Source: Capitulum mitella (lineage: Eukaryota; Arthropoda; Thecostraca; Pollicipedomorpha; Pollicipedidae). From it: 64,000 nucleotides of DNA. The position numbers were made by a program, and so were the translations under genes. The stretch spans positions 10,080,144-10,144,143 of the forward strand of contig CP099849.1 in the NCBI GenBank assembly GCA_030062745.1, written 5' to 3'. Of this stretch, positions 23,654-62,872 are shown one piece after another. The notes beneath the pieces were generated by a model. It was not told the origin of the DNA. It saw only the letters and a list, made by a program, of their open reading frames with translations, and did no database searches. Positions within the stretch are counted from its first letter, which is position 1, and each line of letters begins with the position of its first letter.

Positions 23654-23720
23654 CACCAATGTCAAGGTCACGGCACCCGACCGAATAAAACCGGCCGACC
23701 GACACACCCTGGCACCAGTC
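23654..23720 (+). promoter_or_regulatory. Core promoter of cuticle gene 1
   Basis: In order: CCAAT (23656-23660), TCAAGGTCA (23662-23670), TATA-like AATAAAA ending at 23690, and initiator-like CCAGTC with probable start A at 23717. TCAAGGTCA is the consensus site of FTZ-F1, a known regulator of insect cuticle genes. Placement is from sequence only. Confidence 0.65.
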
Positions 23721-24630: not shown

Positions 24631-25900
24631 GTGACTGTGATTCTACCCGCCAGTGTGTATTTAAATGAGTGTTCGTTTGAAGTGAGTGCCTGCAGACTTC
24701 GTGTACAATGTTGAATTGAATAAATCAGTTTCTTGTGCAGTTCGATGCGTGGTATTGTTCGCTGTTATTACTAAACGATTTAAAGTAATCGTCGGAAACG
24801 GTGAAACGGCGGAGACGACACTCTCGAATTATACATAGACAACATAATATGAAGCTCAAGTATTTTAGATGAAACTGGAAAGTTTTTGAAAAATGAAGTT
24901 ATCGCTTGGCGAAAACTGCATGATTTAATATGCAGTGGCGAGCGAGGCGTCAAACAAGTTAAGGCTGTGCTGATGAATTCTTTTTTCAATTATAGTAATA
25001 TGCATTCGGTGTGCAGCCTCGTAATGAAGCTCCTAGCGAAGTGTTTGGGGCCAAATGTTTCACTCATCCTGAGGTGCAGAGGCTCCCAACTGACCGGAGA
25101 TTTACATATGTCATTAAATTCAGAACTGTTTGTACCACAATAAGCCTGAAAGCACCATTGCATTTTAATGTTATTAATTTACTCATTAATATATTTGATT
25201 ATTTAATTTGTTTTATACATTTACTTAATTGTTATTTGATATATCTAATTTCATTTCTTATTTTAATGTTATTCGTTTTTGTTTAATGGAAAACATTCAT
25301 AATAGGATTTCACTGTCTGCATAAATGCTCTAGGAACAAAAGCTTATCTTTAACGTAAAGATATCGATATTTATGCCGGAGGAACTCGCTTTTTTAAAGT
25401 TTTTCATGTTAACCAACACTCCTTCATTTGAGGTTTTGAAACCAGTAATCATATCTAACCAGTATACCAACTTTGTGGGCTCATTTCCTATTTATTTTAT
25501 TGTTTATTTTCTCCTTAGATCCCGTTCGAAAATTGTGCAGAGAGAACACCGAGACAGCGTGCTCTTCTTCCGCCGTGTTTAACCCGCGCCCGACTGTGGG
25601 TCAGTAATGCACGCCCGACTGGGGGGCATGGCTCCCCCATTAACTCCCGAACAGTTGGTCGTACGATACAAATAACCACATCGTTGGAAAGCTTGTGACA
25701 AGTAGAGCTCAAAACTGACCTCATTTTTAGTTTTGGATAACATGTAAGGCATCTCCGCCTTATGCAGCTACGCCTGCATGAGACCAAGAAACAGAACTGG
25801 ATCTCGAAGGCTGTGACTAATAAAGTCTAGATAAAGATACCAGCGGACGGATAAAAGTCCCCAGATGCCGACGCACGCCCATTTTCTCAGATTTGTTTAA

Positions 25901-27101
25901 CCCTATTCCCGGCAGGGGGGGAAGGGGGTGGAATCCGCCCCCCTCGGGTTTTTTGCTTGCCAATTCAAGGCTTTTTAACGCAGCTTCACGAAACTTGGTC
26001 ACTTTTCCTAGCCATTCTTTCTACGTGCTGTGACAATTTTATCTTGCTCAGGGGCGGAGTCAGGCAACGTTTTTGGGAGGCACCTCATGCCATTTTTGGC
26101 CATGTTAAGGGTAAAAGGAAAATGTCCGCCAAAAACAGAGTTTTAAAGCAAGAACTTAAAACTTTATATGGATGTATAGCTAAATAGTTAAGCAATGTGC
26201 AGATGTAATTTTGTTTATCTGAGGTCATTTTACAAGGTCAGATCAAGGTCAAAAGTCAAAATTTGTTTTTTCGCTATAATTTCGGCGCCATTTTTTCAAA
26301 TGCAGAACCCGGAATATATATGACGTAGAAGGGTGCCCTTTACTTGTGCACCAAGTTTCAGCTTGATATCGGGTCGGGTCACGGAGATATGACCTAAAAT
26401 GTCAGTGCGCGTACCCTATATGGCAATAGCCGTAAAATGAAATTTTTGAAATAGAGTGAATTCAAATGATTGAAAACGTTTACAGATAATATCAAATGCA
26501 CACGAGATCATTACAAGTGACCCCAAGGTCACTAGAGGTCATTTAAAGTCAAAGGTCACAAGTTGATCTGAGAAACGTGTGACCGTGACAGTTCCCCCTT
26601 TTTCATATCCCTGACACCGCCTATGCTAACATTATACAACATTGTAATGCGATTTGTACTTCTTTAGTATAACATGACTAGCAGAAGCCAAAAAAGGGTG
26701 TTTGCCTCTTTTGTTCATCCAGTTGTTCGAAAACTAACCCTCCTATTTTTGAAACCCTGTGAACGCCCATGAATTTTCTCAAAATTTCAGATTTGCGGAC
26801 CCATGGTAAAAGCCCTATCCATAATCTCTCGATTGATGCCAGTTTCATCGAAATCGGTCCATAAACAACGGAGTTATAAGAAGTGCAAAAGTACCCCCCA
26901 TTTTGATTTTTTTGCCCCCCTGTATCCACAAATTTCGAAATTTTGAAAATTTCTTTTTATAAAAATGTAGTTCACGTCACGGCCAATCGATTGCTGTTTG
27001 TTGCGATGAAATCAGACAAGTAGTTCTCGAGATCTCAGGGGGGGCCGAATCCGCCCCCCTGCCGGGAATCGACCATACCGTCTAGCCCTCCGGGAATAGG
27101 G
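25901..27101 (+). mobile_element. F1 MITE, complete 1201-bp copy nested in F2
   Basis: Termini CCCTATTCCCGG and CCGGGAATAGGG are a perfect 12-bp inverted repeat. TTAA is duplicated on both sides (25897-25900, 27102-27105). Equivalent F2 copies at 40.4 and 43.9 kb have a single TTAA, so they are empty sites. The interior is non-coding and rich in TGACCT/AGGTCA half-sites. It arrived after block A and block B separated, or was lost cleanly from B. Confidence 0.93.
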
Positions 27102-27450
27102 TTAATGTGTACATGGAAACGTTGAGTTAAAGATTTTCGCAATGCTGCACGGCGGGCACCGCCGACGAAGGCGGAATGATATTAACGGGAACTAATTTTA
27201 GCGTTCTTTTATGTTCGCGAGACATCCCATTCTCAGTGTTGTTTCTTCATCCAGTTGGTTCTTGGGATGATTTCTCGTGCTCAAATTTGGAAAAAAACTC
27301 ATTAGTTATCAATCTACACAACTAGTGGAGGTTTATTCGCGAAAGTCTGTTTATTTCCAAAGTAAGCAAGTTTTTGAAACTTTTTCAACTTTTTGGTATT
27401 AGCTGCAGCTGAGCGAGCCAGTTCAGTCATTTTCAACCCGATCTGAGCCA

Positions 27451-27518
27451 GTCAAAATGCACTGCCTTCAAAATCGGCGATGAATGCATCGTCGATTTTG
27501 AAGGCAGTGCATTTTGAC
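27451..27518. repeat. Palindromic duplication in F2 copy A
   Basis: GTCAAAATGCACTGCCTTCA and its continuation face their inverted copy across a few bases. F2 copies B and C have only the right arm. Confidence 0.85.
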
Positions 27519-27684
27519 TCATAACAGTTATTCGTGACCTGAACTTAGGTCAGTGGTTGGAGGTCGTTGAAACTTTGCGCACTGACGGAAACTTGATGTC
27601 TGGATCTCCCCACACTCAAACTGTTTTAAAAAATTCCGTCCGTTTTCAAAAAAAGACGAATTATGTTGAAACGGGCTTGACCTC

Positions 27685-27697
27685 AGGTCATTGACCC
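27685..27697. promoter_or_regulatory. EcRE-like inverted repeat (IR-1) in F2 copy A
   Basis: AGGTCA-T-TGACCC differs at one position from the palindromic EcR/USP consensus. It lies about 650 bp upstream of the probable start of gene 2. Function is inferred. Confidence 0.45.
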
Positions 27698-28279
27698 GTA
27701 CATTTCTGAAAAATTTGAGATGATATATTTGTTGTATATTTAAAAATTTCTAACCTTAGACAGGTTTATTCTGATATTGTGTTTTGCAAAAAAGTTACAG
27801 GGCGCCAAATTTTTTTGGACATAAGTCCATTTGAAATGACCTGAGTCAAACACCTTAGTTAACCTGAGGACAAAAATTGGCTGCAAGGTGTAAAAATGAT
27901 TAAGCTAAAGCTACACCAAGTTTCGTGGAGCTGCGTTTGTTTGTTCTCTCGCAGTCTCAAAAACCTAAAGGGGGGGGGGCGGTGAACGGCCCCGCCCCCA
28001 GTCGGGGGTAGGTTAATATCATTTCGATTCGGGAATGCTACATCATTTAGCAAGGCCACATACGGTCTCAGGCTGTCCAGTGATTTCGCACCTCCTTATG
28101 GGTTCTCATCACGACCGATTATTTTCTGCGAAAGGCACATCGCTAGACTCGCAGTTACCACAGCCCCTTCTGTAATCCTCCACGGTTTCGCGCCCCCTGC
28201 TGGCCCGCTGTCCTGGGCGCGGAGCCTTTCTCTTATATCGGTAGTGGGTCACAAAGTCAGTCTCAGCCTCGCCGACACC

Positions 28280-28345
28280 AATGCCAGGGTCACCGCACCT
28301 TCGGCACGGATAAAACTGGCAGACCGACACACCACGGCACCAGTC
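28280..28345 (+). promoter_or_regulatory. Core promoter of cuticle gene 2
   Basis: CCAAT (28278-28282), CCAGGGTCA (28284-28292), ATAAAA (28310-28315) and CCAGTC (near 28340). The FTZ-F1-like motif deviates from TCAAGGTCA at two positions, as in genes 5 and 6. Confidence 0.6.
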
Positions 28346-28371
28346 TCCTGCCTGCTCCACACTCCACAGCC

Positions 28372-29391
28372 ATGAAGGTGGGAGAGCGTTTCACCGGTGT
28401 GACGACTGAGCCGGCGTGCCAGCATAGAAATTCGTACTCAGATCAATGATTCAGCATGAACTGGTATTACATAAGCGGTGGAACCTAGCGTTCGATATGG
28501 CCTTTTGGCACTGATAGTCTCGTTATTTCCAGGCAGGGGCGGCTTAGCAAAGTGCTTACCATGCTCGTCTTGTGGCCGAAAGGTCCTTGGTTCGATTCCG
28601 AATGATAGCGGCATTTCGCCGTCCTTTACGACAACCGTCGTGAGTGTCTGCGTCACGAAGTAACCATGTCAGTCGACAGCGTTGTTCAGTAACCCAGCAA
28701 CCAACTAGCCAACAGATTCACAATCTTTGGTTGGAGGTGCTTTGGGTTGCAGCACCCGCTACTTCAGCAACTAAACGGCAGGACCAGGATCCCAGTATAA
28801 TATTCACCTTCCGTATATAGACCGATCGTTTTCACTCTGAATGGACCTTGAAGTCCTCCAATTTTTCTAAGAAACCGGACCGCTCTTTACCGGCGCCCGT
28901 AGTCTGTACCGGGAATCAGACCTGCTGTGACCCAGTCCCGGGGTGACCTCTAACAGCGCCGGTGACCTCGGCAGGTTCTGATCGTCGCCGCCCTGGTGGC
29001 CGCCGCCGCCGCCGCCGACAGCTACGCCCCGCGGCCGGCCTACCAGCAGCCCAGCTACCACCAGCTGACCTACAAGGAGCCCGACCACTACCACCAGCCG
29101 TACCAGTTCGACTACGCCGTCAACGACCACTACTCGGGTGCCGTGTTCTCGCAGAACGAGAACAGCGACGCCAAGAACGTCAACGGCTACTACTCGGTGG
29201 CTCTGCCCGACGGCCGCACCCAGCACGTCAAGTACGTCGCCGACCACGACGGCTACGGCGGCTACAACGCCGAGGTCACCTACGACGGCGAGGTGCGCTA
29301 TGACGATCACAAGCCCAGCTACCACGCGGCTCCCGCTTACAAGCCGGCCCCCTCCTATGCCCCTGCCCCCTCCTACAAGTCCCGCTACTGA
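28372..29391 (+). CDS. RR-2 cuticle protein, gene 2 of 8
   Basis: Exons 28372-28377 and 28975-29391; 597-bp intron; 140 residues. The signal peptide is poly-Ala rich because of a GCC run. It has the same RR-2 domain as gene 1. Distinct residues are Ala20, Leu33 (shared only with gene 3) and Val109. The tail ends YKSRY. No AATAAA is seen; AATACA at 29480-29485 is the likely poly(A) signal. The intron holds a tRNA-derived SINE. Its block B counterpart is gene 6. Confidence 0.93.
28535..28690 (+). mobile_element. tRNA-derived SINE in gene 2 intron
   Basis: A-box-like TTAGCAAAGTGCTTACC and B box GGTTCGATTCC are spaced as in tRNA genes, followed by an unrelated body. The same insertion occurs in the introns of genes 5 and 6, so it predates the duplications. 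Confidence 0.7.
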
Positions 29392-30237
29392 GTGATTGTG
29401 ATCCTGCCCGCCAGTGCGTATTTAATAGAGCGTTTGTTTGATATGAGTGCCTGCAAACTCCGGATACAATGCTGCTTTGAATACATACAGGGAACGTTAG
29501 TGAGTTCTTTTGCTGTTAGATGCATGATATCGTTCGTTGTCATTGCTGAACGATTGAAAGTAATCGTCCGAAACCGTTGAACGGCGAGAACATAACCTTG
29601 GAACGATACCTGATGAATGGAATATTGAAGCTGCAGAGTTTTAGATGACACTGTAAAATCATCAAATGATGAAGCTATCGCTTGGTGAACACCATATGAC
29701 TTGATATGCAGTGACGAGCAAGGTGCCACACGAGTTACGGCCGTGTTGTTCAATTTTTATCTGCCTGTTGTATTAATATTCTTTCGGTGTGCGGCATCAC
29801 TTGTAATGAGTTCCCTAGCAAAGTGTTTCGAACCAAATGTTTCACTAACCTTGGTCGTAGACACCCTTAGGAAATGTATGGTCAATGCCATTTTAACTAA
29901 AAAATCCATGGTGCTGCTCCCTTCTGGTTTGGTTACAGCCATTACAGTAACTAGAGGACTGTTTGAGTTGCATACTAGAACACCGTGAAATAGAAACCAT
30001 TACGAGAATTATTTTATTTTTCCTCATCATATTCGTTTAATACTTAGAAAACAAAAAAAAAATAGGAAAATCACGAAAGACACAGCACTGACCGCACATT
30101 TTTCTGAAAAGACCGTTGTTTTTATGTCAATGAAATGTTTGATGTGTAAATTAACTTTTTTCTGAGTGCCCTTGAATAATCCAATACTTTCGTTTGAAAA
30201 CACGTAGCACGGGAATCCTAAAAGCACCGTTGGCCTT

Positions 30238-30293
30238 GCTTTCGTTTCATATACTATTAAACGAAAGCATTCAAAATGCTCTCGTTTGAATGC
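30238..30293. repeat. Two abutting hairpins downstream of gene 2
   Basis: GCTTTCGTTT pairs with AAACGAAAGC. Sharing the final GC, GCATTCAAA pairs with TTTGAATGC. The copy in block B is near 47031-47086, with one change in the second stem. Role unknown. Confidence 0.75.
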
Positions 30294-30599
30294 CTTTAAA
30301 TTTTTAAATTTCCCGAACTAAATTGAAAGTACCATTTTAGGCTACAACAAAGCGATTTCATTTTTGGAAATTCTATAAAGGAGCTAGACACAAGCAGAGG
30401 TTTCCCTTGATATCTAGGATGATATGGTTTTGACAGAGCGTTTACTTTGATCGCGGGGTATAGCTTTTAGCAAATATGTTTCGTAGCCTCAGGTCTGTTT
30501 CATAAAAAAACGCATTATGTATGTTCGGCAAGTTTTTGGTGCCTGCTTAGCTGGAGAAACTTCGTCCTAGAGACACTGTGTTGCGTTTCCGCCAGAACA

Positions 30600-31100
30600 A
30601 TATAGTTTTAATTTCCAACATCCAGGTCCATTTTTACAAGCACTACACCTAAAGCCATCAAAAATGAAGCAGGTGTCGATATCGATTAAATCTGTCCTGA
30701 ATCCCTGCTGCAAGTATGCAAACTTCCAGGCGTGCCTAACATTGCCTTGATTTGACTATGCATTCTTTGAGAGATAATCAAACAGTCGGGTATTCCTAAA
30801 TAAGGTACAACCAAAATGCTAATGCAACACACTGTTGTATATAAATGCGGCCTGCAGTGGCAAAAAAATTCTTAAAACCCATTCTAAAAATGCGTACGTT
30901 GGTGTTACAAAGCCTGGTTCCGGAAAGTTTTTCACGTTATCTTCATTGTACAAGTATCATGTAACAAACTGCAGCCAGCAGAGAAAAGCTTTCGATCCGA
31001 TACTTTTGGGACCCAAAATGAACTATCGGATGGCCGTTTCTGCCGTTTATCGGATCGGTCGTTCCTGGAAATCCACGGATACGGACTTCAGCTAATTTCA
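30600..31100. repeat. Conserved upstream module, first of eight
   Basis: A roughly 500-bp module precedes each gene or broken copy: about 30.6-31.1, 31.8-32.2, 35.0-35.5, 37.4-37.8, 47.4-47.9, 48.6-49.0, 51.8-52.3 and 54.2-54.6 kb. Shared strings include CTGAATCCCTGCTG, TGCAGTGGCAAAAA and GGTGTTACAAAGCC. Frames on both strands are open in some copies, but they break or shift in others, so I read it as non-coding. Confidence 0.7.
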
Positions 31101-31199
31101 GTTTAGTTCAGACTAGAAGATGATCTTTTAGCAAAGCCACGTTAGATCTTTGACTGTCCAGCCGTCACAAGCCTCTTGCCAGTTCCACACTCGACATCC

Positions 31200-31410
31200 A
31201 TGAAGGTTGGAGGGTGCTTCACAGATGTGGCGGGTCAGCCGGCTTAGACAGAGTGGCGCAGCACTGTGGTTCAATATGAACTGATCTCAGGTAAATGATG
31301 GTCTGTTGGCTGAATGGCTGTTTGATACTCAAATTAGCTTTTTTATTGCCCTTAAGCGATCCAAAAGTTTTGTGCCACGACATGTGGTAGCACGAAAACT
31401 TTAAAAGCAC
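31200..31410 (+). pseudogene. Broken cuticle gene copy, exon 1 only
   Basis: ATGAAG|GTTGG at 31200-31207 with the family leader (TTCCACACTC) and intron start. The region that should hold CCAAT, the FTZ-F1-like motif and the TATA-like box is deleted. After about 150 bp the intron joins downstream-type sequence (CACGACATGTGGTAGCACG), so exon 2 is gone. Confidence 0.75.
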
Positions 31411-32471
31411 CGCTGGGCGTGGATTGAAGAAAACTTTTGTTTGACAGACGCCATGACTCTGTTTCGTGTTATCAGTCTGAAAGGCTCTTATGTTTTGAAA
31501 GTCGGTGAAATAAACCCTGAACTATCATTTCAGGCCACCACATTGCGATTCTGATTTTGTTAATCTCAAGTGGGCTATTCACATTCATTAGTTTTCCTTC
31601 ATATCTAATGTGATGTGGTTTCTACAGTGCGTTTACTATGAGCGCAGTTTATAACTTTTAAGAAAAATGCTTCGTCTTCCGAGGTCCGTTCCATAAAAAC
31701 ACATCACATCTAATAACCTTTTTGGTGGTTCCTGAACTGGAAAAGTTCGGCCCTAACGGCATGGTTGATGCTGGGTTCCGACCAGAACAATGATAGTTTT
31801 CGTATCTAGAATCCACATCGACTTTTACCACCACTGCACTCAATTCCATCAAAATCAAAGAAGATGTCGATGTCTGTTGAATGTGTTCTGAATCCATGCT
31901 GAAAGCTTGCTAATTTCTGGATGTATCTAACACCGCCTTGTCTGACAGCTGATTCTTTCAGAGATAAGCAAACAATCCTATACTCCTGAAAAAGGCGCAA
32001 CCACGATGCTGATGTAACATGCCGTGGCATAAAGTGCAACCTGCAGTGGTAAAAGAATCTTTAAAACCAAGATGATGAATGTGCACGTTGGTGTGACAAA
32101 TCCTGGTTCGAAAACAACTTTCATGTTACTTCGATGTCCGAGTATCACGCAACAAACTGTAGCAAAATCTGGCCAGCATGACGTAGCTTTCGGTCCGATA
32201 CTATAGCAGTCCACGCCCATGCAGTTCAGGGATGCTACGTATTTAGCAAAGCCGAGTACGGTCTTCGTCTGTCCAGTGATCTCGCATCTCCTTATGGATT
32301 CTCATCACGACCGAGTGTTTTGTGCGAGAGGCTCATCGCTACACTCGCAGTTACCACAGCTTGTGCTGTAATCCTCCACTGTTTCGCGCCCCTTGGCCCA
32401 ATGTCCTGTCCAAGGAGCCCGTCCCACGTACGGGCAGCGGGTCGCAGAGTGAGACCCAGCCTCGCCCACAC

Positions 32472-32537
32472 CAATGTCAAGGTCACGGCATCCGACCGGC
32501 ATAAAAGCGGCCGACCGACACACCCCGGCACCAGTCT
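32472..32537 (+). promoter_or_regulatory. Core promoter of cuticle gene 3
   Basis: CCAAT (32471-32475), TCAAGGTCA (32477-32485), ATAAAA (32501-32506), and CCAGTC near 32531. The FTZ-F1-type site is perfect, as in genes 1 and 7. Confidence 0.65.
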
Positions 32538-32562
32538 CCTGCCTGCTCCACACTCCAAAGTC

Positions 32563-33761
32563 ATGAAGGTAGGAGAGCGTTTCAACGGTGTGGCGGCCCA
32601 GCCGGCTTAGACATAGTGGCGCAGCTCTATGGTTCAGTATGAAGTGGTCTTGGTTCAACCGTGATAGGTGTTACAGAGTTTGATGCGACGTTTTGTTTCT
32701 GATGGTCTCACAAATTCACATCTTTATGTTCACTGTGCCACTACGGGCTTTAGTTTGCTATGCCTACGAATTTACTGAAACGATCTGATTAGTGACAGAT
32801 CATAAACATAAGAATAAAAATGCGGTCTAAAATGAATATCCCCTGTTTTAAGGGAACAATCTTGACGCCAAGACCACAGGCGCATAGCCAGGATTTTCCT
32901 CAGAAGGGGGGAAGGGAATATGAAATCTTGTCATATGCCACTGGCATACGATGAAATTTACAGGAAAAATCAGCAGTGCTAAGTAATTTGCCTGATATTT
33001 AATGCACCAGAAATCATATCATGTTTGTTTTTGTCAGATATATATGATCATTATTCCGTATTCGTGCGAAATCGCAATATATCTAGTAAGAACCGCCTGG
33101 CTCGGGGGAGGGCCATGGCCTCCATTGTCCCCCCTTGGCTACGTCCCTGCAGGACCAGATTTTCTTTACATTCACCTTCCTTATGTAGACTGATCGTGTT
33201 ACCATTGACTGCGCCTCGAAGTCTCCGGATTTTTCCCTCAGTCCCTGGACCACTCTTGACCAGCGCCCGTAGTCTGTGCCGGGAATCAGACCTGATGTGA
33301 CCCAGTCCCAGGGTGACCTCTAACAGCGCCGGTGACCTCGGCAGGTTCTGATCGTCGCCGCCCTGGTGGCCGCCGCCGCCGCCGCCGACAGCTACCGCCC
33401 GCGGCCGGCCTACCAGCAGCCCAGCTACCACCAGCTGACCTACAAGGAGCCCGACCACTACCACCAGCCGTACCAGTTCGACTACGCCGTCAACGACCAC
33501 TACTCGGGTGCCGTGTTCTCGCAGAACGAGAACAGCGACGCCAAGAACGTCAACGGCTACTACTCGGTGGCTCAGCCCGACGGCCGCACCCAGCACGTCA
33601 AGTACGTCGCCGACCACGACGGCTACGGCGGCTACAACGCCGAGGTCACCTACGACGGCGAGGCGCGTTATGACGAGAACAAGCCCAGCTACCACGCGGC
33701 TCCTTCCCACAAGCCGGCCCCCTCGTACGCCCCTGCCCCCTCCTACAAACCCCGCTACTGA
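32563..33761 (+). CDS. RR-2 cuticle protein, gene 3 of 8
   Basis: Exons 32563-32568 and 33345-33761; 776-bp intron enlarged by a 273-bp MITE; 140 residues. Same signal peptide and RR-2 domain as its neighbours. Distinct residues are Leu33 (shared with gene 2), Gln79 inside the RR core, Glu113-Asn114, and His124 where the others have Tyr. The tail ends YKPRY. The poly(A) signal is probably AATACA (33848-33853). Its block B counterpart is gene 7. Confidence 0.93.
32877..33149 (+). mobile_element. hAT-like MITE in gene 3 intron
   Basis: Left end CAGGCGCATAGCCAGG and right end CCTTGGCTACGTCCCTG form an imperfect inverted repeat. Flanks CAAGACCA and CAGGACCA look like an 8-bp target duplication with one mismatch. 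Other gene introns have one uninterrupted copy of this flank. The 8-bp duplication and CAG terminus suggest hAT. Confidence 0.75.
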
Positions 33762-35634
33762 GTGACTGTGATTCTGCCCGCCAGTGTGTATTTAACAGCG
33801 TTTATTTGATATGAGTGCTTGCAAACTCCGTAAACAATGCTGCTTTGAATACATAAAAGGGACGTGAGTGAGTTTCTTTTGCTGTTAGATGCATGATATC
33901 GTTCGTTGCCATTACTAAACGATTGAAAGTAATCGTCGGAAACCGCTCAACGTCGGGAACATAATCTTGGAACGATACCTGAAGAACGGAATATTGAAGC
34001 TGAAGGGTTTTAGATGAGACTGTGAAATCATCAAATGATGAAGCTATCGTTTGGTGAAAACCATATGATTTTATATGCAGTGACGGGCAAGGTGCCACAC
34101 GAGTTACGGCCGGGTCGCTCAGTTTTTCTCTGCCTGTTGTATTAATATTCTTTCGGTGTGCGGCATCACTTGTAATGAGTTGCCTAGCAGTGATTGGAAC
34201 CAAATGTTTCACTTACCTTGAGCGTAGACACCCTTAGGAGATGTAGGGTCAATGCCATTTTAACTAAAAAATCCATGGTGCTGCTCCTTTAACAAATTTG
34301 GGTGGGTCTAATATCATCCGGTTTGGTCACAGCCATTACATTATCTAGAGGACTGCGTGAGTTGTATACCAGAATGCCTTGAAATTGAGACCATTATGAA
34401 AATTATTTTATTTTTCCTCATCATATTCGTTAATACTTAGAAAACAAAAAAACATTGGAAAATCGCGAAAGACACAGCACTGACCGAACATTTTCCTGAA
34501 AAGACCATTGCTTTTATGTTAATGAAATGTTGTTTAATGTGTAAATTAACTTCTTTCTGAGTGCCCTTAAATAATTCAATGCTTTCGTTCGAAAACACTT
34601 AGCACGGAAAGTTCAAAAGCACCGTTGGCCTTGCTTTCGTTTCATAGACTATCAAATGAAAACATTCAAAATGCTTTCGTTTAATGGAGGTTATGGCGTC
34701 TTTCCTTATCAGTGGGGAAATGCCTTTAAGTTTTTAAACTTTCCGGGCTAAATTTAAAGTGCCATTTTAGGCTACAGAAGAGCGATTTCACTTTTGGAAA
34801 TTTTATAAAGGAGCTAGTCAGAAGCAGATGTTTCCCTTGATATCTAGGATGATATGGTTTCGACAGAGCGTTTACTTTGGTCGCGGATTATAGCTTTTAG
34901 CAAATATGTTTCGTCGCCTCAGGTCCGTTTCATAAAAATGCATTATGTATGTTCGGCAAATTTTTGGTGCCTGCTTAGCTGGAGAAACTTCTGCCTTATG
35001 ACATGATATTGGATTTCTGCCAGAACAATAATCGTTTTAATAATAGTTTTAACAATAATAGTTTTAATGTCCAACATCCATGTCCACTTTTACCACCACG
35101 ACACCGAAAGCCATCAAAAGCGAAGCAGGTGTCGATATCAATTAAACCTGTCCTGAATCCCTGCTGTAAGTATGCAGGCTTCCAGACGTGCCTAACGTTG
35201 CCTTGATTTGATTATGCATTCTTTGAGAGATAACCAAACAGTCGGGTATTCCTGAATCAGGTACAACCAAAAATGCTAATGCAACACACTGTTGCATATA
35301 AATGCAACCTGCAGTGGCAAAAAATCCTTGAAACCCATTCTAAGAATGCGTACGTTGGTGTCACAAAGCTTGGTTTCGGAAAGTTTTTCACGCTATCTTC
35401 ATTGTACGAGTATCATCTGACAAACTGCAGCCAGCAGAGAGAAGCTTTCGATCTGATGCTTTTGGGACCCAAAATAACTATCGGATGGATAACGGTCGTT
35501 TCTGGAAATCCACGGATACGGACTTCAGCTAATTTCAGTTTAGTTCAGAAATGCTCTATCTTTTAGCAAAGCCACGTTAGATCTTTGACTGTCCAGCTGC
35601 CACAAGTCTCCTGCCAGTTCCACACTCGACATCC

Positions 35635-36123
35635 ATGAAGGTTGGAGGGTGCTTCACCGATGTGGCGGGTCAGCCGGCTTAGACATAGTGGCGCAGCACT
35701 GTGGTTCAATATAAAGTGATCTTACTTTAATGGTGGAAGATGGTACATGGTTTGATTTACATGGATGAATTTACATGGATTACATGGTTTGATTTACATG
35801 GATGTTGTGTTCCTGATGATCTCACAAATTCACGTGCTTTGGTTAGCTGTGCCACGATGAGCTCTCAGCTTTAGCTTTCAACGCCTGCTAATTCACCGAA
35901 ACGATTTGACAGGATGTAAATCGCGAACATAAGAATAAAATATTATCTTCAGAAAAAGTCTCCCTGTTTTATCCGATGAAATCTTATGCCGGGACTAGGA
36001 TCCCTTTATATTCGCTCTCCGTTTATCTTGTGATCACTTTGTCTTTGCGCCTCAAAGCCCACAGATTTCCCTCTAAGCCACCGGACCGCTCTAGATCAAT
36101 GCCTGTAGTCTGTGCCGGGAATC
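35635..36123 (+). pseudogene. Broken cuticle gene copy: exon 1 and intron, exon 2 lost
   Basis: ATGAAG|GTTGG at 35635-35642, then a nearly full-length gene-type intron ending TGTAGTCTGTGCCGGGAATC. At that point intact genes continue to the acceptor, but this copy runs into an F1 MITE terminus. The core promoter is deleted as in the 31.2 kb copy. Confidence 0.85.
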
Positions 36124-36154
36124 GACCATACCGTCTAGCCCTCCGGGAATAGGG
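36114..36154 (+). mobile_element. F1 MITE terminal scar at the deletion junction
   Basis: GCCGGGAATC (36114-36123) is shared by the gene intron and F1. From there the sequence is the F1 right terminus to CCGGGAATAGGG, followed by TTAA (36155-36158). Confidence 0.85.
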
Positions 36155-36249
36155 TTAAGCCTTGCTGTGTATATGGGTAATTGTCCTGGGTAGCATGCAA
36201 ACATATTTTCATTGACTTTCGGCGTTTTACACGGTAAGGCCACGGTAAA

Positions 36250-37050
36250 AAATCGAAAACTGATTTTGCGTACACTTGTTTGCAATTATTTTCAAAATCG
36301 AAAGATGGAATATATATGCCTTGTTTGGGCTTGTCTTCTATATCTTCGATATCTTCTACTTGTGGTTTCAGTTTCAGTCGATATTAAAGTCAAGTGATGG
36401 AACTATAGCCTAAATTGTTTACCAGGATGACCACATAACACAACGGCCATAAACAGGATAATGCCTGCAACAACCCAAATAACTGGGATTCTCAAATTCT
36501 CAAATCTAAATTCTCAGACACTATGAAATGAGTCCAAGGTCATTATACATGACATTGGAGCCATCGAAGGTCATCTGAGGTGAAAAGCTCAGACACCGAA
36601 CTAATGAAAATGCAACTGTGACAGTTACCGTTTTATTTGCTCCTGGCACTACTAATGCCAACATTATGCAATCAATGCAAAACAATTTGTACTCGTGGAG
36701 CATCAAATGAGAAGTATAAAGTTCTCCTTCCTCTTTTCAAGCCCTGGCAAAGCATGCCATATTTGCCAAAATTCTAAACACGCTGCCCAAAGGAAGAACT
36801 CCCATAAACATGCTCTCATTTCATGCCAATTACATCACAATCGTTCCATATACATCGGAATTGCAACTAGTCCCAAAAATGTGACCGTTCCCGACTTTTT
36901 TGATGTCCTGCACACACCCTTTAGAATATTTTTAAAATATATTCTTTTCCAAAAATGTAGTTTACGTCATGGCGAATCCAAACACGATCAAATCGGACGA
37001 ATGGTTCGAGAGATTTTGAAGAGGGGAGGGAGGCGGGGATGGGAAGAAGC
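36250..37050 (+). mobile_element. F1-related MITE, degenerate
   Basis: The interior aligns with 26.3-27.05 kb: GTGACAGTTACCGTTTT, TGCCAACATTATGCAA and AAAAATGTAGTTTACGTCA have close F1 equivalents. Termini are not recognisable. It is repeated in block B at about 53.02-53.83 kb. Confidence 0.6.
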
Positions 37051-38071
37051 CACCATACAAGAAGTGTCCATAGACGAGGATACGAGAACTGAGATAACCT
37101 AAGCTATTGTTTAAGGCTGCAACATTACAGCTTTGGGACGATATTATAAATGGCCCGATGACACCGGGAACTCTCGTTAGACATGGAGTTGAACATAATT
37201 TCGACAGTCTGTTTTTTAGGAGTACCGGAAGGAACTTTGTCTCTTCTCCGCAGGTCTACTTCATGAAGTATTCCGTGTTTGGCCAGTTTTCTGTGTTTGC
37301 CGAAACGGAGGAACTGGGCCTTCGAGTGGTACTGAATGCCCGCCAGGAGGAAAATTATTTTCGTAACAAGTATTAATTGCTGCACCACATACTGTCGAAA
37401 TCGAAGAGATCATCAATATCTGTTGGAACTGCTCTAAGCCCCTGGTGAACGACTGCTAACTTCTGTGAAATAAACAGTGTTGTCTTGGTAGTGCGTACTT
37501 CGTGATGTGAGCTTACAGTCGTCTATTCCTGAGTGAAGACCAGAATTCTAATCTAACACACTGTTGGGTGTAGATGCAAGCTGTACGTGACAAATGATAT
37601 TTGAAATGAATTTCACGAACATCCATCTTGGCCTGACAAACCTTGAATGAAGGACGATTTTTGCATTGTCTTCTTTATACCCTGAAAATACAGTAAAACC
37701 TCAACAATATTTTGCCGGAAGGGCGAAGGTCTTCTTCAGATATGGTAGGGCCCATGCTCAACTAACGAACATGAAACCGGTACTTCTCCAGACCGAGAGA
37801 CACGGAATGCCGCAGCATTTAGTAAAGATGCGTTTGGTTCCTGACTGCCCATTACTTAGCCCATTAGTCTGACTGCCCACTACCCGCAGCCCACTGTTTC
37901 CACACCTTCCTTGGATACTTTGCATGACCGAATATGTTCTGCGACAGACTGCAGAGCTCGTCCCTGAACTGGCACATCCCACAGTCGATTCTGCAATGCT
38001 CCACTGCCTCGCACCATTGTTTCCCTCATATCGGTAATGGGTCACAAAGTCAGTCTCAACCACGCCCACAC

Positions 38072-38138
38072 CAATGTCAGGGTCACCGCACCTCCGGCAC
38101 GGATAAAACCGGCTGACCGTCACATTCTGGCACCACAC
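38072..38138 (+). promoter_or_regulatory. Core promoter of cuticle gene 4
   Basis: CCAAT (38071-38075), TCAGGGTCA (38077-38085), ATAAAA (38103-38108). The initiator region reads CCACACTC instead of CCAGTC. Gene 8 has the same promoter type. Confidence 0.6.
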
Positions 38139-38166
38139 TCTCCTGCCTGCTCTACACTCCACAGCC

Positions 38167-39121
38167 ATGAAGGTAGGAGAGCGCTTCACCATTGTGGCGA
38201 CCGACTCAGCATGGAAATACATACTCAGATTTATGATTCAGCATGAAGTGGTATTACATAAGCGGTGGGAGGATTGTAGGGTTTTATATGGCTTTTTGCC
38301 ACTAATGGTCTCATAAACTGACATGCTTTGGTCGATCGTGCTGTAAAGAGCTTCCAGTTTTAGGTTGCAGCGCCCAGTTATTCACTGGAACGATTTGATT
38401 AAAGATAGATCGAAAACATAAGACTAAAAATGTGAACTAAAAGAAAGATCTTTCCGTTTTAAGCAGATCAAATCTTCAAGCCATGTACATTCACCGAGGA
38501 TCCCCGTATGTTCACCGAGTATCCCTGTAGAATCACATTCCGCTTATAGTTCGATCTTGTTACCATTGAGTGAATCTCGGAATCCTCGGGTTTCTCTCTC
38601 ATTATCGGACCGCTCCTTACCGGCGCTCGTGGTGTGCGCCAGGAGTCAGATATGCTGTGGTTGAGTCCCGGGGTGACCTCTAACAGCGCCGGTGACCTCG
38701 GCAGGTTCTGATCGTCGCCGCCCTGGTGGCCGCCGCCGCCGCCGCCGACAGCTACCGCCCGCGGCCGGCCTACCAGCAGCCCAGCTACCACCAGCCGACC
38801 TACAAGGAGCCCGACCACTACCACCAGCCGTACCAGTTCGACTACGCCGTCAACGACCACTACTCGGGTGCCGTGTTCTCGCAGAACGAGAACAGCGACG
38901 CCAAGAACGTCAACGGCTACTACTCGGTGGCTCTGCCCGACGGCCGCACCCAGCACGTCAAGTACGTCGCCGACCACGACGGCTACGGCGGCTACAACGC
39001 CGAGGTCACCTACGACGGCGAGGCACGCTATGACGAGCACAAGCCCAGCTACCACGCGGCTCCCGCTTACAAGCCGGCTCCCTCCTATGCCCCTGCCCCT
39101 TCCTACAAGTCTCGCTACTAA
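38167..39121 (+). CDS. RR-2 cuticle protein, gene 4 of 8 (chimeric)
   Basis: Exons 38167-38172 and 38705-39121; 532-bp intron; 140 residues. The promoter, intron and most of exon 2, up to Glu113-His114, match gene 8. The last ~80 coding bases, TAA stop context, 3' UTR with AATAAA (39210-39215) and downstream DNA match genes 1 and 5. The gene therefore looks like the product of an unequal crossover within exon 2, between about 39035 and 39060. The encoded protein is intact: signal peptide 1-16, RR-2 about 45-108, AP(A/S)Y tail. Confidence 0.93.
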
Positions 39122-40072
39122 GTGACTGTGATTCTGCCCGCCAGTGTGTATTTAAATGAGTGTTCGTTTGAAGTGAGTGCCTGCAGACTTCGTGTACAAT
39201 GTTGAATTGAATAAATCAGTTTCTTGTGCAGTTCGATGCATGGTATTGTTCGCTGTTATTACTAAACGATTTAAAGTAATCGTCGGAAACGGTGAAACGG
39301 CGGAGACGACACTCTCGAATTATACATAGACAACATAATATGAAGCTCAAGCATTTTAGATGAAACTGGAAAGTTTTTAAAAAATGAAGTTATTGCTTGG
39401 CAAAAACTGCATGATTTAATATGCAGTGGCGAGCGAGGCGTCAGACAAGTTAAGGCTGTGCGGATGAATTCTTTTTTCAATAATAGTAATATGCATTCGG
39501 TGTGCAGCCTCGTAATGAAGCTCCTAGCGAAGTGTTTGGGGCCAAATGTTTCACTCATCCTGAGGTGCAGAGGCTCCCAACTGACCGGAGATTTATATAT
39601 GTCATTAAATTCAAAACTGTTTGTACCACAGTAATCCTGAAAGCACCATTGCATTTTAATGTTATTAATTTATTCATTGATATATTTGATTATTTAATTT
39701 ATTTTATATATTTATTTAATTGTTATTTGATATATCTAATTTCATTTCTTATTTTAATGTTATTCGTTTTTGTTTAATGGAAAACATTCATAATAGGATT
39801 TCAATGTCTGCATAAATGCTCGAGGAACACAGGCTTATTTTTAAGGTAAAGATATCGATATTTATGCCGGAGGAACTCGCTTTTGTAAGGTTTTTCATGG
39901 TAATAACACTCCTTCATTTCAGGTTTTGAAACCAGTAATCATATCTAACCAGTATAACAACTTTGTGGGCTCATTTCCTATTTACTTTATTGTTTATTTT
40001 CTCCTTAGATCCCGTTCGAAAATTGTGCAAAGAGAACACCGAGACAGCGTGCTCTTCTTCCGCCGGATTTAA

Positions 40073-41269
40073 CCCACGCCCGACTGCGGGTCAGAGTCAT
40101 GCACGCCCGACTGGGGGGTATGGCTCCCCATTAACTCCCGAACAGTTGTTCGTACGATACAAATAACCACATCGTTGGAAAGCTTGTGACAAGTAGAGCT
40201 CAAAACTGACCTCATTTTTAGTTTTGGATAACATGTAAGGCATCTCCGCCTTATGCAGCTACGCCTGCATGAGACCAAGAAACAGACCTGGATCTCAAAG
40301 GCTGTGACTAATAAAGTCTAGATAAAGATACCAGCGGACAGATAAAAGTCCCCAGATGCCGACGCACGCCTATTTTCTCAGACTTGTTTAATGTGTACAT
40401 GGAAACGTTGAGTTAAAGACACGGTGATTTTCGCAATGCTGCACGGCGGGCGCCGCCGACGAAGGCGGAATGATATTAACGGGAACTAATTTTAGCGTTC
40501 TTTTATGTTCGCAAGACATGCCATTCTCAGTGTTGTTTCTTCATCCAGTTGGTTCTTGGGATGATTTCTCGTGCTCAAATTTGGAAAAAACTCATTAGTT
40601 ATCAATCTACACAACTAGCGGAGGTTTATTCGCGAAAGTATGTTTATTTCCAAAGTAAGCAAGTTTTTGGGACTTTTTCAACTTTTTGGTATTAGCTGCA
40701 GCTGAGCGAGGCAGTTCAGTCATTTTCAATCCGATCTGAGCCATTCATCGCCGATTTTGAAGGCAGTGCATTTTGACTCATAACAGTTATTCGTGACCTG
40801 ACCTTAGGTCAGTGGTTGGAGGTCGTTGAAACTTTGCCCACTGACGGAAACTTGATGTTTGGATCTCCCCACACTCAAATTGTTTTCAAAAATTCCTTCC
40901 GTTTAAAAAAAAGACGAATTATGTTGAAAACGGGCTTGACCTCAGGTCAGTGACCCGTACATTTCTGAAAAATTTGAGATAGCATATTTGTTGTACATTT
41001 AAAAATTTCTAACCTTAGACGGGTTTATTCTGATATTGTGTTTTGCAAAAAAGTTACAGGGCGCCAAATTTTTTTGGACATAAGTCCATTTGACATGACC
41101 TGGGTCAAACACCTTAGTTAACCTGAGGACAAAAATTGGCTGCAAGGTGTAAAAATGATTAAGCTAAAGGTACACCAAGTTTCGTGGAGCTGCGTTTGTT
41201 TGTTCTCTCGCAGTCTCAAAATCCAAAGGGGGGGGGCGGTGAACGGCCCCGCCCCCAGTCGGGGGCGGG
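40073..41269 (+). mobile_element. F2 MITE copy B, upstream of gene 5
   Basis: Termini CCCACGCCCGACTG and CAGTCGGGGGCGGG with TTAA at 40069-40072 and 41270-41273; 1197 bp. It contains the unoccupied TTAA equivalent to the F1 insertion site. Flanks match copies A and C, so all three descend from one insertion. Confidence 0.9.
40944..40956. promoter_or_regulatory. EcRE-like IR-1 in F2 copy B
   Basis: AGGTCA-G-TGACCC, about 655 bp upstream of the probable start of gene 5. Confidence 0.45.
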
Positions 41270-41536
41270 TTAATATCATTTCGATTCGGGAATGCTACAT
41301 CATTTAGCAAGGCCACATACGGTCTCAGGCTGTCCAGTGATTTCACACCTCCTTATGGATTCTCATCACGACCGATTATTTTCTGCGAAAGGCACATCGC
41401 TAGACTCGCAGTTACCACAACCCCTTCTGTAATCCTCCACGGTCTCGCGCCCCCTGCTGGCCCGCTGTCCTGGGCGCGGATCCTTTCTCTTATATCGGTA
41501 GTGGGTCACAAAGTCAGTCTCAGCCTCGCCGACACC

Positions 41537-41603
41537 AATGCCAGGGTCACCGCACCTTCGGCACGGATAAAACTGGCAGACTGACACACCACGGCACCAG
41601 TCT
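41537..41603 (+). promoter_or_regulatory. Core promoter of cuticle gene 5
   Basis: CCAAT (41535-41539), CCAGGGTCA (41541-41549), ATAAAA (41567-41572), CCAGTC near 41597. Confidence 0.6.
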
Positions 41604-41628
41604 CCTGCCTGCTCCACACTCCACAGCC

Positions 41629-42651
41629 ATGAAGGTAGGAGAGCGTTTCACCTGTATGGCAATCGAGCCGGCGTGCCGGCATAGAAATTCGTACTCAGAT
41701 CAATGATTTAGCATGAACTGGTATTACGTAAGCGGTGGAAGGGCTCCAACGTTCGAAATGGCCTTTTGGCACTGATGGTCTCATTATTTCCAGGCAGGGG
41801 CGGCTTACCAAAGTGCTTACCATGCTCGTCTTGTGGCCGAAAGGCCCTTGGTTCGATTCCGGGTGATAGCGGCATTTCGCCGTCCCTTGCGACAACCGTC
41901 GTGAGTGTCTGCGTCACGAAGTAACCCTGTAGGTCGATAGCGTTGTTCAGTAACCCAGCAACCAACTAGCCAACAGATTCACAATCTTTGGTTGGAGGTG
42001 CTTTGGGTTGCAGCGCCCGCTACTTCAGCAACTAAACGGCAGGACCAGGATCCCTGTACAATATTTACCTTCCGTATATAGACCGATCGTTTTACACTGA
42101 ATGGACCTTGAAGTCCTCCAATTTTTCTAAGAAACCGAACCGCTCTTTACCGGCGCCCGTAGTCTGTACCGGGAATCAGACCTGCTGTGACCCAGTCCCG
42201 GGGTGACCTCTAACAGCGCCGGTGACCTCGGCAGGTTCTGATCGTCGCCACTCTGGTGGCCGCCGCCGCCGCCGCCGACAGCTACCGCCCGCGGCCGGCC
42301 TACCAGCAGCCCAGCTACCACCAGCCGACCTACAAGGAGCCCGACCACTACCGCCAGCCGTACCAGTTCGACTACGCCGTCAACGACCACTACTCGGGTG
42401 CCGTGTTCTCGCAGAACGAGAACAGCGACGCCAAGAGCGTCAACGGCTACTACTCGGTGGCTCTGCCCGACGGCCGCACCCAGCACGTCAAGTACGTCGC
42501 CGACCACGACGGCTACGGCGGCTACAACGCCGAGGTCACCTACGACGGCGAGGCGCGCTATGACGATCACAAGCCCAGCTACCACGCGGCTCCCGCTTAC
42601 AAGCCGGCTCCCTCCTATGCCCCTGCCCCTTCCTACAAGTCTCGCTACTAA
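41629..42651 (+). CDS. RR-2 cuticle protein, gene 5 of 8 (chimeric)
   Basis: Exons 41629-41634 and 42235-42651; 600-bp intron; 140 residues. Promoter, SINE-bearing intron and the start of exon 2 (Thr8, Arg42) match gene 6. The end of exon 2 with TAA, the 3' UTR with AATAAA (42740-42745) and the downstream DNA match gene 4. It is thus a second crossover product and the extra unit of block B. It alone has Ser70 in place of Asn. Confidence 0.93.
41792..41950 (+). mobile_element. tRNA-derived SINE in gene 5 intron
   Basis: Same insertion as in gene 2. B box GGTTCGATTCC is intact; the A box reads TTACCAAAGTGCTTACC. Confidence 0.7.
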
Positions 42652-43603
42652 GTGACTGTGATTCTGCCCGCCAGTGTGTATTTAAATGAGTGTTCGTTTG
42701 AAGTGAGTGCCTGCAGACTTCGTGTACAATGTTGAATTGAATAAATCAGTTTCTTGTGCAGTTCGATGCATGGTATTGTTCGCTGTTATTACTAAACGAT
42801 TTAAAGTAATCGTCGGAAACGGTGAAACGGCGGAGACGACACTCTCGAATTATACATAGACTACATAATATGAAGCTCAAATATTTTAGATGAAACTGGA
42901 AAGTTTTTAAAAAATAAAGTTATCGCTTGGCGAAACCTGCATGATTTAATATGCAGTGGCGAGCGAGGCGTCAAACAAGTTAAGGCTGTGCTGATGAATT
43001 CTTTTTTCAATTATAGTAATATGCATTCGGTGTGCAGCCTCGTAATGAAGCTCCTAGCGAAGTGTTTGGGGCCAAATGTTTCACTCATCCTGAGGTGCAG
43101 AGGCTCCCAACTGACCGGAGATTTATATATGTCATTAAATTCAAAACTGTTTGTACCACAGTAATCCTGAAAGCACCATTGCATTTTAATGTTATTAATT
43201 TACTCATTAATATATTTGATTATTTAATTTGTTTTATATATTTATTTAATTGTTATCTGATATATCTAATTTCATTTCTTATTTTAATGTTATTCGTTTT
43301 TGTTTAATGGAAAACATTCATAATAGGATTTCACTGTCTGCATAAATGTTCGAGGAACAAAGGCTTATTTTTAACGTAAAGACATCGATATTCATGCCGG
43401 AGGAACTCGCTTTTTTAAACTTTTTCATGGTAACCAACACTCCTTTATTTGAGGTTTTGAAACCAGTAATCATATCTAACCAGTATAACAACTTTTTGGG
43501 CTCATTTCCTATTTACTTTAATGTTTATTTTCTCCTTAGATCCCGTTCGAAAATTGTGCAGAGAGAACACCGAGACAGCGTGCTCTTCTTCCGCCGGTTT
43601 TAA

Positions 43604-44803
43604 CCCGCGCCCGACTGTGGGTCAGAGTCATGCACGCCCGACTGGGGGGCATGGCTCCCCCATTAACTCCCGAACAGTTGGTCTTACGATACAAATAACC
43701 ACATCGTTGGAAAGCTTGTGACAAGTAGAGTTCAAAACTGACCTCATTTTTAGTTTTGGATAACATGTAAGGCATCTCCGCCTTATGCAGCTACGCCTGC
43801 ATGAGACCAAGAAACAGACCTGGATCTCAAAGGCTGTGACTAATAAAGTCTAGATAAAGATACCAGCGGACAGATAAAAGTCCCCAGATGCCGTCGCACG
43901 CCCATTTTCTCAGATTTGTTTAATGTGTACATGAAAACGTTGAGTTAAAGACACGGTGATTTTCGCAATGCTGCACGGCGGGCGCCGCCGACGAAGGCGG
44001 AATGATATTAACGGGAACTAATTTTAGCGTTCTTTTATGTTCGTCAGACATGCCATTCTCAGTGTTGTTTCTTCATCCAGTTGGTTCTTGGGATGATTTC
44101 TCGTGCTCAAATTTGGAAAAAACTCATTAGTTATCAATCTACACAACTAGCGGAGGTTTATTCGCGAAAGTATGTTTATTTCCAAAGTAAGCAAGTTTTT
44201 GGGACTTTTTCAACTTTTTGGTATTAGCTGCAGCTGAGCGAGCCAGTTCAGTCATTTTCGACCCGATCTGAGCCATTCATCGCCGATTTTGAAGGCAGTG
44301 CATTTTGACTCATAACAGTTATTCGTGACCTGACCTTAGGTCAGTGGTTGGAGGTCGTTGAAACGTTGCCCACTGACGGAAACTTGATGTCTGGATCCCC
44401 CCACATTCAAACTGTTTTCAAAAATTCCGTCCGTTTTAAAAAAAAGACGAATTATGTTGAAAACGGGCTTGACCTCAGGTCAGTGACCCGTACATTTCTG
44501 AAAAATTTGAGATAACATATTTGTTGTACATTTAAAAATTTCTAACCTTAGACGGGTTTATTCTGATATTGTGTTTTGCAAAAAAGTTACAGGGCGCTAA
44601 AATTTTTTGGACATAAGTCCATTTGACATGACCTGGGTCAAACACCTTGGTTAACCTGAGGACAAAAATTGGCTGCAAGGTGTAAAAATGATTAAGCTAA
44701 AGGTACACCAAGTTTCGTGGAGCTGCGTTTGTTTGTTCTCTCGCAGTCTCAAAATCTAAAGGGGGGGGGGCGGTGAACGGCCCCGCCCCCAGTCGGGGGC
44801 GGG
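43604..44803 (+). mobile_element. F2 MITE copy C, upstream of gene 6
   Basis: CCCGCGCCCGACTG to CAGTCGGGGGCGGG, TTAA at 43600-43603 and 44804-44807; 1200 bp. Unoccupied F1 target site. Confidence 0.9.
44477..44489. promoter_or_regulatory. EcRE-like IR-1 in F2 copy C
   Basis: AGGTCA-G-TGACCC, about 655 bp upstream of the probable start of gene 6. Confidence 0.45.
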
Positions 44804-45069
44804 TTAATATCATTTCGATTCGGGAATGCTACATCATTTAGCAAGGCCACATACGGTCTCAGGCTGTCCAGTGATTTCACACCTCCTTATGGATTCTCAT
44901 CACGACCGATTATTTTCTGCGAAAGGCACATCGCTAGACTCGCAGTTACCACAGCCCCTTCTGTAATCCTCCACGGTTTCGCGCCCCCTGCTGGCCCACT
45001 GTCCTGGGCGCGGATCCTTTCTCTTATATCGGTAGTGGGTCACAAAGTCAGTCTCAGCCTCGCCCACAC

Positions 45070-45162: not shown

Positions 45163-46184
45163 ATGAAGGTAAGAGAGCGTTTCACCTGTGTGGCGACCGA
45201 GCCGGCGTGCCGGCATAGAAATTCGTACTCAGACCAATGATTCAGCATGAACTGGTATTACATAAGCGGTGGAAGGGCTCTTGGGTTCTATATGGCCTTT
45301 TGGCACTGATGGTCTCATTATTTCCAGGCGGGGGCGGCTTAGGGAAGTGATTACCGTGCTCGCCTTGTGGCCGAAAGGCCCTCGGTTTGAGTCCGGGTAA
45401 TAGCGGCATTTCGCCGTCCCTTGCGACAGTCGTCGTGAGTGTCTGCGTCACGAAGCAACCCTGTCAGTCGATAGTGTTGTTCAGTAACCCAACAACCAAC
45501 CAGCCAACAAATTCACAATCTTTGGATGGACGTGCTTTGGGTTGCAGCGCCCGCTACTTCAGCAACTAAACGGCAGGCAGGATCTCTGCATAATATTCAC
45601 CTTCCGTATATAGACCGGTCGTTTTCACTCTGAATGGACCTTGAAGTCCTCCAATTTTTCTAAGAAACCGAACCGCTCTTTACCGGCGCCCGTAGTCTGT
45701 ACCGGGAATCAGACCTGCTGTGACCCAGTCCCGGGGTGACCTCTAACAGCGCCGGTGACCTCGGCAGGTTCTGATCGTCGCCACTCTGGTGGCCGCCGCC
45801 GCCGCCGCCGACAGCTACCGCCCGCGGCCGGCCTACCAGCAGCCCAGCTACCACCAGCCGACCTACAAGGAGCCCGACCACTACCGCCAGCCGTACCAGT
45901 TCGACTACGCCGTCAACGACCACTACTCGGGTGCCGTGTTCTCGCAGAACGAGAACAGCGACGCCAAGAACGTCAACGGCTACTACTCGGTGGCTCTGCC
46001 CGACGGCCGCACCCAGCACGTCAAGTACGTCGCCGACCACGACGGCTACGGCGGCTACAACGCCGAGGTCACCTACGACGGCGAGGCGCGCTATGACGAT
46101 CACAAGCCCAGCTACCACGCGGCTCCCGCTTACAAGCCGGCCCCCTCCTATGCCCCTGCCCCCTCCTACAAGTCCCGCTACTGA
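45163..46184 (+). CDS. RR-2 cuticle protein, gene 6 of 8
   Basis: Exons 45163-45168 and 45768-46184; 599-bp intron; 140 residues. The donor is GTAAGA where the other seven intact copies have GTAGGA or GTGGGA. Thr8 and Arg42 are shared with gene 5. It lacks the Leu33 and Val109 of its block A counterpart, gene 2. The tail ends YKSRY. The poly(A) signal is probably AATACA (46273-46278). The intron contains the SINE. Confidence 0.93.
45328..45485 (+). mobile_element. tRNA-derived SINE in gene 6 intron
   Basis: Third copy of the same insertion. The B box has decayed to GGTTTGAGTCC. Confidence 0.65.
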
Positions 46185-62868: not shown

Positions 62869-62872
62869 TTAA

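Follow-up and report, generated by a model that had tools for sequence, protein, structure and literature searches.

Three of the eight cuticle genes arrayed in a 64-kb stretch of the Capitulum mitella genome (C11:10080144-10144143, the whole of which is called the window below) have upstream of them a copy of the same repeat element, F2, and in each copy the palindrome AGGTCA-N-TGACCC, an inverted repeat with a 1-bp spacer (IR-1) that resembles the binding site of the ecdysone receptor EcR/USP. The locus raises the question of whether a transposon has given a subset of the array its own moult response, as a sequence-only reading of the window had proposed: a miniature inverted-repeat transposable element (MITE) would have placed the palindrome upstream of genes 2, 5 and 6, and may have rewired them. 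Our answer, to which we give a probability of about 0.7, is that the palindrome is a passenger of one insertion copied along with segments of the array, and that the moult control shared by the genes more likely runs through promoter-proximal elements.

A probable single insertion copied with the array

Regarding the palindrome, AGGTCANTGACCC occurs exactly at four positions of the window, 27685, 40944, 44477 and 63420, with the spacers T, G, G and A, respectively, and all four sites fall within F2 copies (A to D), just as the earlier reading had it; a search allowing up to two mismatches returned 16 matches in the window, against a mean of 3.8 and a maximum of 11 in shuffled sequence. The arrangement, inverted AGGTCA half-sites with a 1-bp spacer, is that of an ecdysone response element (EcRE), for which the degenerate consensus is RGKTCANTGAMCY; one F2 half-site is TGACCC, inside that consensus, instead of the perfect TGACCT, and a further half-site stands directly upstream, giving TGACCT-N-AGGTCA-N-TGACCC. 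A fifth exact IR-1 spans the right edge of the window, from 63999 (L009:2066), 579 bp from that of copy D. The elements, palindromes and genes in question, in window coordinates, are the following:

25579..25900, plus strand: 5' part of F2 copy A, beginning TTAACCCGCGCCCGAC, downstream of gene 1 and upstream of gene 2
25897..27105, no strand assigned: nested TTAA-ended insert (1.2 kb) that splits copy A, from a second repeat family, with ends TTAACCCTATTCCCGG
27102..28016, plus strand: 3' part of F2 copy A, with GGTTAA at its end
27685..27697, plus strand: IR-1 AGGTCATTGACCC in F2 copy A
28372..29391, plus strand: cuticle gene 2, with exon 1 (ATGAAG) at 28372, exon 2 from about 28975, ATAAAA at 28310 and CCAGGGTCA at 28284
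40069..41273, plus strand: F2 copy B, uninterrupted, between genes 4 and 5
40944..40956, plus strand: IR-1 AGGTCAGTGACCC in F2 copy B
41629..42651, plus strand: cuticle gene 5, with CCAGGGTCA 88 bp before the ATG
43600..44807, plus strand: F2 copy C, between genes 5 and 6, full length and with a TTAA at either end
44477..44489, plus strand: IR-1 AGGTCAGTGACCC in F2 copy C
45163..46184, plus strand: cuticle gene 6, with CCAGGGTCA 88 bp before the ATG
62866..63757 (limits approximate), plus strand: F2 copy D, a separate insertion of the main subfamily
63420..63432, plus strand: IR-1 AGGTCAATGACCC in F2 copy D

Copies A, B and C end at 28016, 41273 and 44807, so that 294 bp separate each copy from the TATA box of its gene (2, 5 and 6, respectively; the earlier reading gave about 300 bp), and their palindromes begin 685-687 bp ahead of the start codon. 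When the window was searched with nhmmer (E up to 1e-3), no F2 turned up in front of genes 1, 3, 4, 7 and 8, again in agreement with the earlier description.

This regular placement has a simple origin. The segment 27102-38652 is repeated at 43920-55425 with 96.9% identity, and 38518-43085 at 42047-46640 with 93.7%. Copies A, B and C agree in the sequence that flanks F2 on the left and on the right, and always stand between a 3' flank of the type of genes 1, 4 and 5 and a promoter of the type of genes 2, 5 and 6. Because they share both flanks and are 96-98% identical to each other, and the best F2 outside the array reaches only 83% to copy C (40 of 8,124 candidates scored), copies A to C very likely represent one insertion that predates the duplications and was spread by them. 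The shared flanks led us to reject separate insertions at the three genes, and with them the repeated placement on which the rewiring proposal had mainly leaned.

The same identities bear on the argument that the half-sites stay constant and the spacers vary. As a pattern this is correct, the 13-base IR-1 of copies A to C differing at the spacer only; as evidence it is weak, because intact half-sites are expected in copies that are 96-98% identical throughout F2, and their constancy was rejected as a sign of selection. The spacer is G in all four fetched relatives of copies A to C and A in the main consensus; on these alignments the T of copy A is the sole private change among the window spacers.

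Abundance of IR-1 and F2 in the genome

Genome-wide counts, which cover 477 Mb in 16 contigs, gave 4,684 occurrences of the exact 13-base IR-1 word (2,283 + 2,401), against 65 of the reversed word (36 + 29). Other 12-base words of the F2 consensus were likewise frequent: 3,742 for the word at position 351 (reversed, 30), 3,299 at 601 (24), 2,594 at 851 (60) and 731 at 1101 (55); a 17-base F2 word occurred 2,244 times, a figure not comparable with the 12-base counts. First-look candidates numbered 4,378 for the 3' part of F2 and 8,124 for the whole of copy C. An F2 word stood at the expected offset in 68 of the first 100 IR-1 places listed, all on contig C1, and the other 32 may include diverged F2; among eight loci picked by IR-1, F2 covered the motif in six.

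Along the listed part of contig C1, one of four cuticle loci had an IR-1 about 2 kb upstream (judged by eye, and too few to test). The same contig has nine IR-1 places within 66 kb (C1:5773197-5839243). A co-duplicated cuticle array was considered there and rejected: the one 4-kb piece read from it was partly F2-like DNA, and no cuticle exon was recognized by eye among its open reading frames (ORFs) of at least 70 amino acids.

Retention of the palindrome

If the host had co-opted the palindrome, its copies would keep the site better than the rest of the element, and retention was compared between IR-1 and all other windows of F2. In 30 loci selected by an anchor word that lies 713 bp from IR-1, 29 of which cover the site, the palindrome was intact in 15, against 47% for the median window, and 398 of 1,174 windows scored higher. 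A second sample comprised 68 F2 copies in loci not selected by IR-1, with an intact palindrome in 38 (rank 439 of 1,213 windows). Split by identity, the copies at 90% or above had it intact in 30 of 47 (rank 612 of 1,213, at the median), those at 85-90% in two of seven (rank 739, below the median), and those under 85% in six of 14, where the median window had 0 (rank 43 of 1,165); four of these last six, L089-L092, form one subfamily chosen by its likeness to copy C, which has the site. Because young copies retain the palindrome like the rest of the element, no host selection to keep IR-1 is visible, and we infer that it is mostly neutral in the host.

Within the array, copies A to C are 96-98% identical over F2, 98-99% over the stretch from F2 to the TATA box, 97-99% in exon 2 and 92-95% in the intron; read from these values, there appears to be no clear sign of constraint on F2, and none against it.

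The promoter-proximal element and the receptors

As for the control shared by the array, the consensus for FTZ-F1/SF-1 binding is YCARGGYCR, and each of the eight promoters has its form YCARGGTCA, starting 85-90 bp upstream of the ATG and 14-17 bp from the TATA box (86-90 bp before the ATG in genes 3, 4, 7 and 8). The element reads TCAAGGTCA in genes 1, 3 and 7, TCAGGGTCA in genes 4 and 8, and CCAGGGTCA in genes 2, 5 and 6; YCARGGYCR has 20 matches in the window, both strands counted. Gene 1, which has no F2 upstream, may serve as the example:

23662..23670, plus strand: YCARGGTCA, as TCAAGGTCA, of gene 1

Because it is present in all eight promoters, with or without F2, this proximal element is the better suspect and would explain moult control common to the array more simply than IR-1. 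FTZ-F1 is reported to control cuticle genes of insects, EDG84A and BMWCP5 among them (PMC7559895, PMC2848646). Like these β-FTZ-F1-controlled genes, the array has a candidate FTZ-F1-type site in a cuticle promoter, here near the TATA box; it differs from them in that the array offers a sequence match alone, and the site used in PMC7559895 is another one, TTAATGA.

Both partners of the ecdysone receptor, EcR and one of the RXR type, are encoded in the genome. The fragment L087 best matches EcR chains (4umm_E, E 2.1e-25), and L078 has a DNA-binding domain (DBD) of the RXR type, as judged by eye; FTZ-F1-like DBDs were recognized, also by eye, in L071 and L072. Nuclear-receptor DBDs came in similar pairs at different loci (by eye, L069/L070, L071/L072, L073/L074, L075/L076 and L084/L086). 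Such pairs would fit what an ancient genome duplication leaves, and one has been proposed for barnacles (PMC11331182).

The canonical EcR/USP element is an inverted repeat, according to PMC4777130, and the F2 palindrome is like it (PMC4777130, PMC5494300) in having inverted AGGTCA-type half-sites, here with a 1-bp spacer; the differences are that it rides on a dispersed transposon and is predicted from sequence alone. IR-1 may be competent for EcR/RXR binding in vitro.

F2 as a transposon family

The fetched F2 copies align end to end over about 1,225 bp. Of 35 copies aligned in this way, 31 have TTAA at both ends, the exceptions being both L038 copies, L021 and L008. The element begins and ends with CCCGCGCACGAC and CCCGTCCCCGAC, and a G/C palindrome lies in subterminal position; the termini read CCCG(C/T), and the 16-bp arms, TTAA included, are 81% complementary, that is, imperfect terminal repeats. 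In the ORF list of the window, no frame of at least 100 amino acids lies inside copy A, B, C or D. The length of F2 is large for a MITE, as which the earlier reading had classed it.

F2 is a high-copy, non-coding family that targets TTAA, and it likely belongs to the piggyBac type; this membership is likely only, because the terminal motif is CCCG and the ends of the transposases checked differ. The genome has 118 matches to PF13843 (piggyBac transposase). Two of the 118 were examined, and they have 19-bp terminal inverted repeats, TTAACCCATTAACGCCCAG, with TTAA and CCC in common with F2 and the remainder different; neither is an autonomous partner bearing the ends of F2. Elements of the piggyBac superfamily are marked by TTAA together with CC-type ends, and terminal inverted repeats of 12-19 bp are expected in them. 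The motif given for piggyBac-type termini in PMC2872659 is CC[C/T]T, and further reported motifs are CCCTT, CCCTC, CCCAT and CACTA. F2 resembles the coral CMITEs, as these are described in PMC2872659, in the TTAA target, CCC termini, lack of coding capacity and high copy number, and also in the insertion into each other's TTAA and the conserved interior; it differs in length (about 1.2 kb against about 0.1 kb) and terminus (CCCG against CC[C/T]T). Unlike the CMITEs, F2 has imperfect terminal repeats, a subterminal G/C-rich palindrome and an internal AGGTCA cluster.

As for the other repeats of the window, copy D consists of two pieces, 88.5 and 92.0% identical to L010, with about 345 bp deleted just before its IR-1. 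The second TTAA-ended family, with TTAACCCTATTCCCGG ends, has relatives at 1-939 and 18741-19912, and one of its ends weakly resembles the 3' end of F2 (nhmmer matches 801-940 and 26052-25894). A near search of a phage collection with F2 as query gave no match, as expected.

The cuticle genes

The exon-2 frames of the eight genes begin at 24235, 28996, 33366, 38726, 42256, 45789, 50157 and 55562, each being the first in-frame start codon and not the exon edge. Each gene has a short candidate first exon starting with ATGAAG, with ATAAAA 62-64 bp ahead (62 bp before the ATG in genes 2, 5 and 6). The Chitin_bind_4 domain was looked for in genes 2 and 5 and found in both, in line with their description as cuticle genes. 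At least 150 matches to this domain occur in the genome, many in tandem arrays (150 of 627 first-look candidates scored); the window's own eight genes are absent among the matches listed. A SelR (methionine sulfoxide reductase B) domain is encoded by an open frame of the window at 17151-17711.

As paralogues, the eight promoters share 73-100% identity overall and 98-99% among genes 2, 5 and 6. By contrast with this grouping, the 3' flanks fall into the sets 1/4/5, 2/6 and 3/7 (97-98% identity), with gene 8 separate. Gene 5 is chimeric, with a promoter of the 2/6 type and a 3' flank of the 1/4 type; judged from these flanks, the chimerism points to unequal exchange between members of the array. 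It also defeats the suggestion that the 3' untranslated regions could separate genes 2, 5 and 6 from the others, the 3' flank of gene 5 matching at 98% identity those of genes 1 and 4, both without F2 upstream.

Weighing the explanations

The course of events that best fits these data starts from the F2 consensus, whose clustered AGGTCA half-sites include two arranged as a perfect IR-1. One old copy would have entered a single spacer of the cuticle array, and duplication of array segments would then have put that spacer in three places, so that the palindrome came to genes 2, 5 and 6 as a mere passenger. The moult control common to the array would more likely act through the proximal YCARGGTCA beside the TATA box, and, if the half-site cluster persists from one F2 subfamily to another, this would more likely serve the transposon, for example as a binding region for transposase or a host factor, than the cuticle genes.

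Several points weigh against this reading. No pre-insertion site could be recognized ahead of genes 3 and 7, where homology picks up again near the right end of F2 and the left flank fails to align. The eight promoters are paralogous, so that their common YCARGGTCA is not independent evidence of function. In the array, F2 is better kept than the intron, though less than the promoter-side flank. Other points concern the family as a whole: of five 12-base F2 words whose occurrences were compared, IR-1 is the most frequent; among eight diverged subfamily rows its window ranks 15 of 1,213; and it is intact in five of the seven non-consensus rows (L089-L092 and copy C), a value reached by just 19 of 1,213 windows. 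On these ranks, neutrality alone may not describe IR-1 across the family, and the conservation between subfamilies, drawn from a biased sample, weakly suggests a role of the palindrome for the transposon itself.

That F2 brought a working EcRE, and with it a moult response peculiar to genes 2, 5 and 6, is very unlikely. The match to the EcR/USP consensus, the EcR and RXR-type receptor in the genome, the position kept at -685 to -687 in all three copies with a further half-site just upstream, and the better preservation of F2 than of the intron all speak for it, and the EcR sites predicted upstream of 25 of 26 silkworm RR cuticle genes (PMC2848646) make the idea ordinary and not implausible. 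Set against this, the single insertion removes any repeated recruitment, the half-sites would be intact at this identity anyway, the genome has thousands of further IR-1 words, young copies give no sign of constraint, and divergence is slightly greater in F2 than in the flank on its promoter side. What survives of the rewiring proposal is a non-coding transposon with an IR-1 of EcR/USP-consensus type upstream of the three genes, and from that placement rewiring by F2 is possible; its main support, repeated placement, is lost.

The cluster of half-sites itself admits two further explanations. The consensus of 1,225 bp contains 10 AGGTCA/TGACCT (overlaps counted), against a mean of 0.57 and a maximum of 3 in 1,000 shuffles. 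Selection on the transposon, for an internal region bound by transposase or a host factor, would account for this excess, for the rank of IR-1 between subfamilies, for its retention in copies under 85% and for its abundance among the words counted, and it has a precedent in the conserved interior proposed to be functional in coral piggyBac-like MITEs (PMC2872659). Such selection is possible, though less likely than not: four of the six intact diverged copies come from the subfamily picked for likeness to copy C, IR-1 is lost in L005b and L033b, copies at 85-90% fall under the median, and neither of the two transposase matches examined has the ends of F2. Alternatively, the half-sites could be a functionless by-product of short internal duplications of GACCTNAGGTC units, an explanation that is plausible though short of even odds: a 20-bp unit, GACCTGACCTCAGGTCAATG, occurs three times in L010 at 80-100%, and retention in young copies is average, but the unit that holds IR-1 is highly conserved between subfamilies.

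Meaning for the genome and for moult control

The notable residue of this analysis is that one family of transposons has spread exact IR-1 sites by the thousand, the words being about seventy times as frequent as the reversed control, with most of the listed sample in F2. Repeat families of this kind have a counterpart in the AGGTCA-containing Alu repeats, which disperse nuclear-receptor sites; F2 is like them in spreading receptor half-sites genome-wide, and differs in being a DNA transposon, in an arthropod, with IR-1 geometry and predicted sites. No account of a transposon-borne EcRE was recognized in the open literature searched, judged by titles and the openings of abstracts.

The case illustrates that a single insertion, multiplied by segmental duplication, can resemble three recruitments, and how an array-wide, promoter-proximal site can be the better first suspect. 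A bolder view, that a piggyBac-type family evolved a selected half-site cluster including an EcR/RXR-type IR-1 and so scattered several thousand candidate moult-receptor sites, is unlikely; if true, the scattered F2 sites would be a ready stock from which gene regulation could be rewired, and the copies upstream of genes 2, 5 and 6 would be one instance. If the sites bind the receptor, F2 would dominate any EcR chromatin immunoprecipitation or motif study in this genome, and the family could be used to test whether transposons tune moult control.

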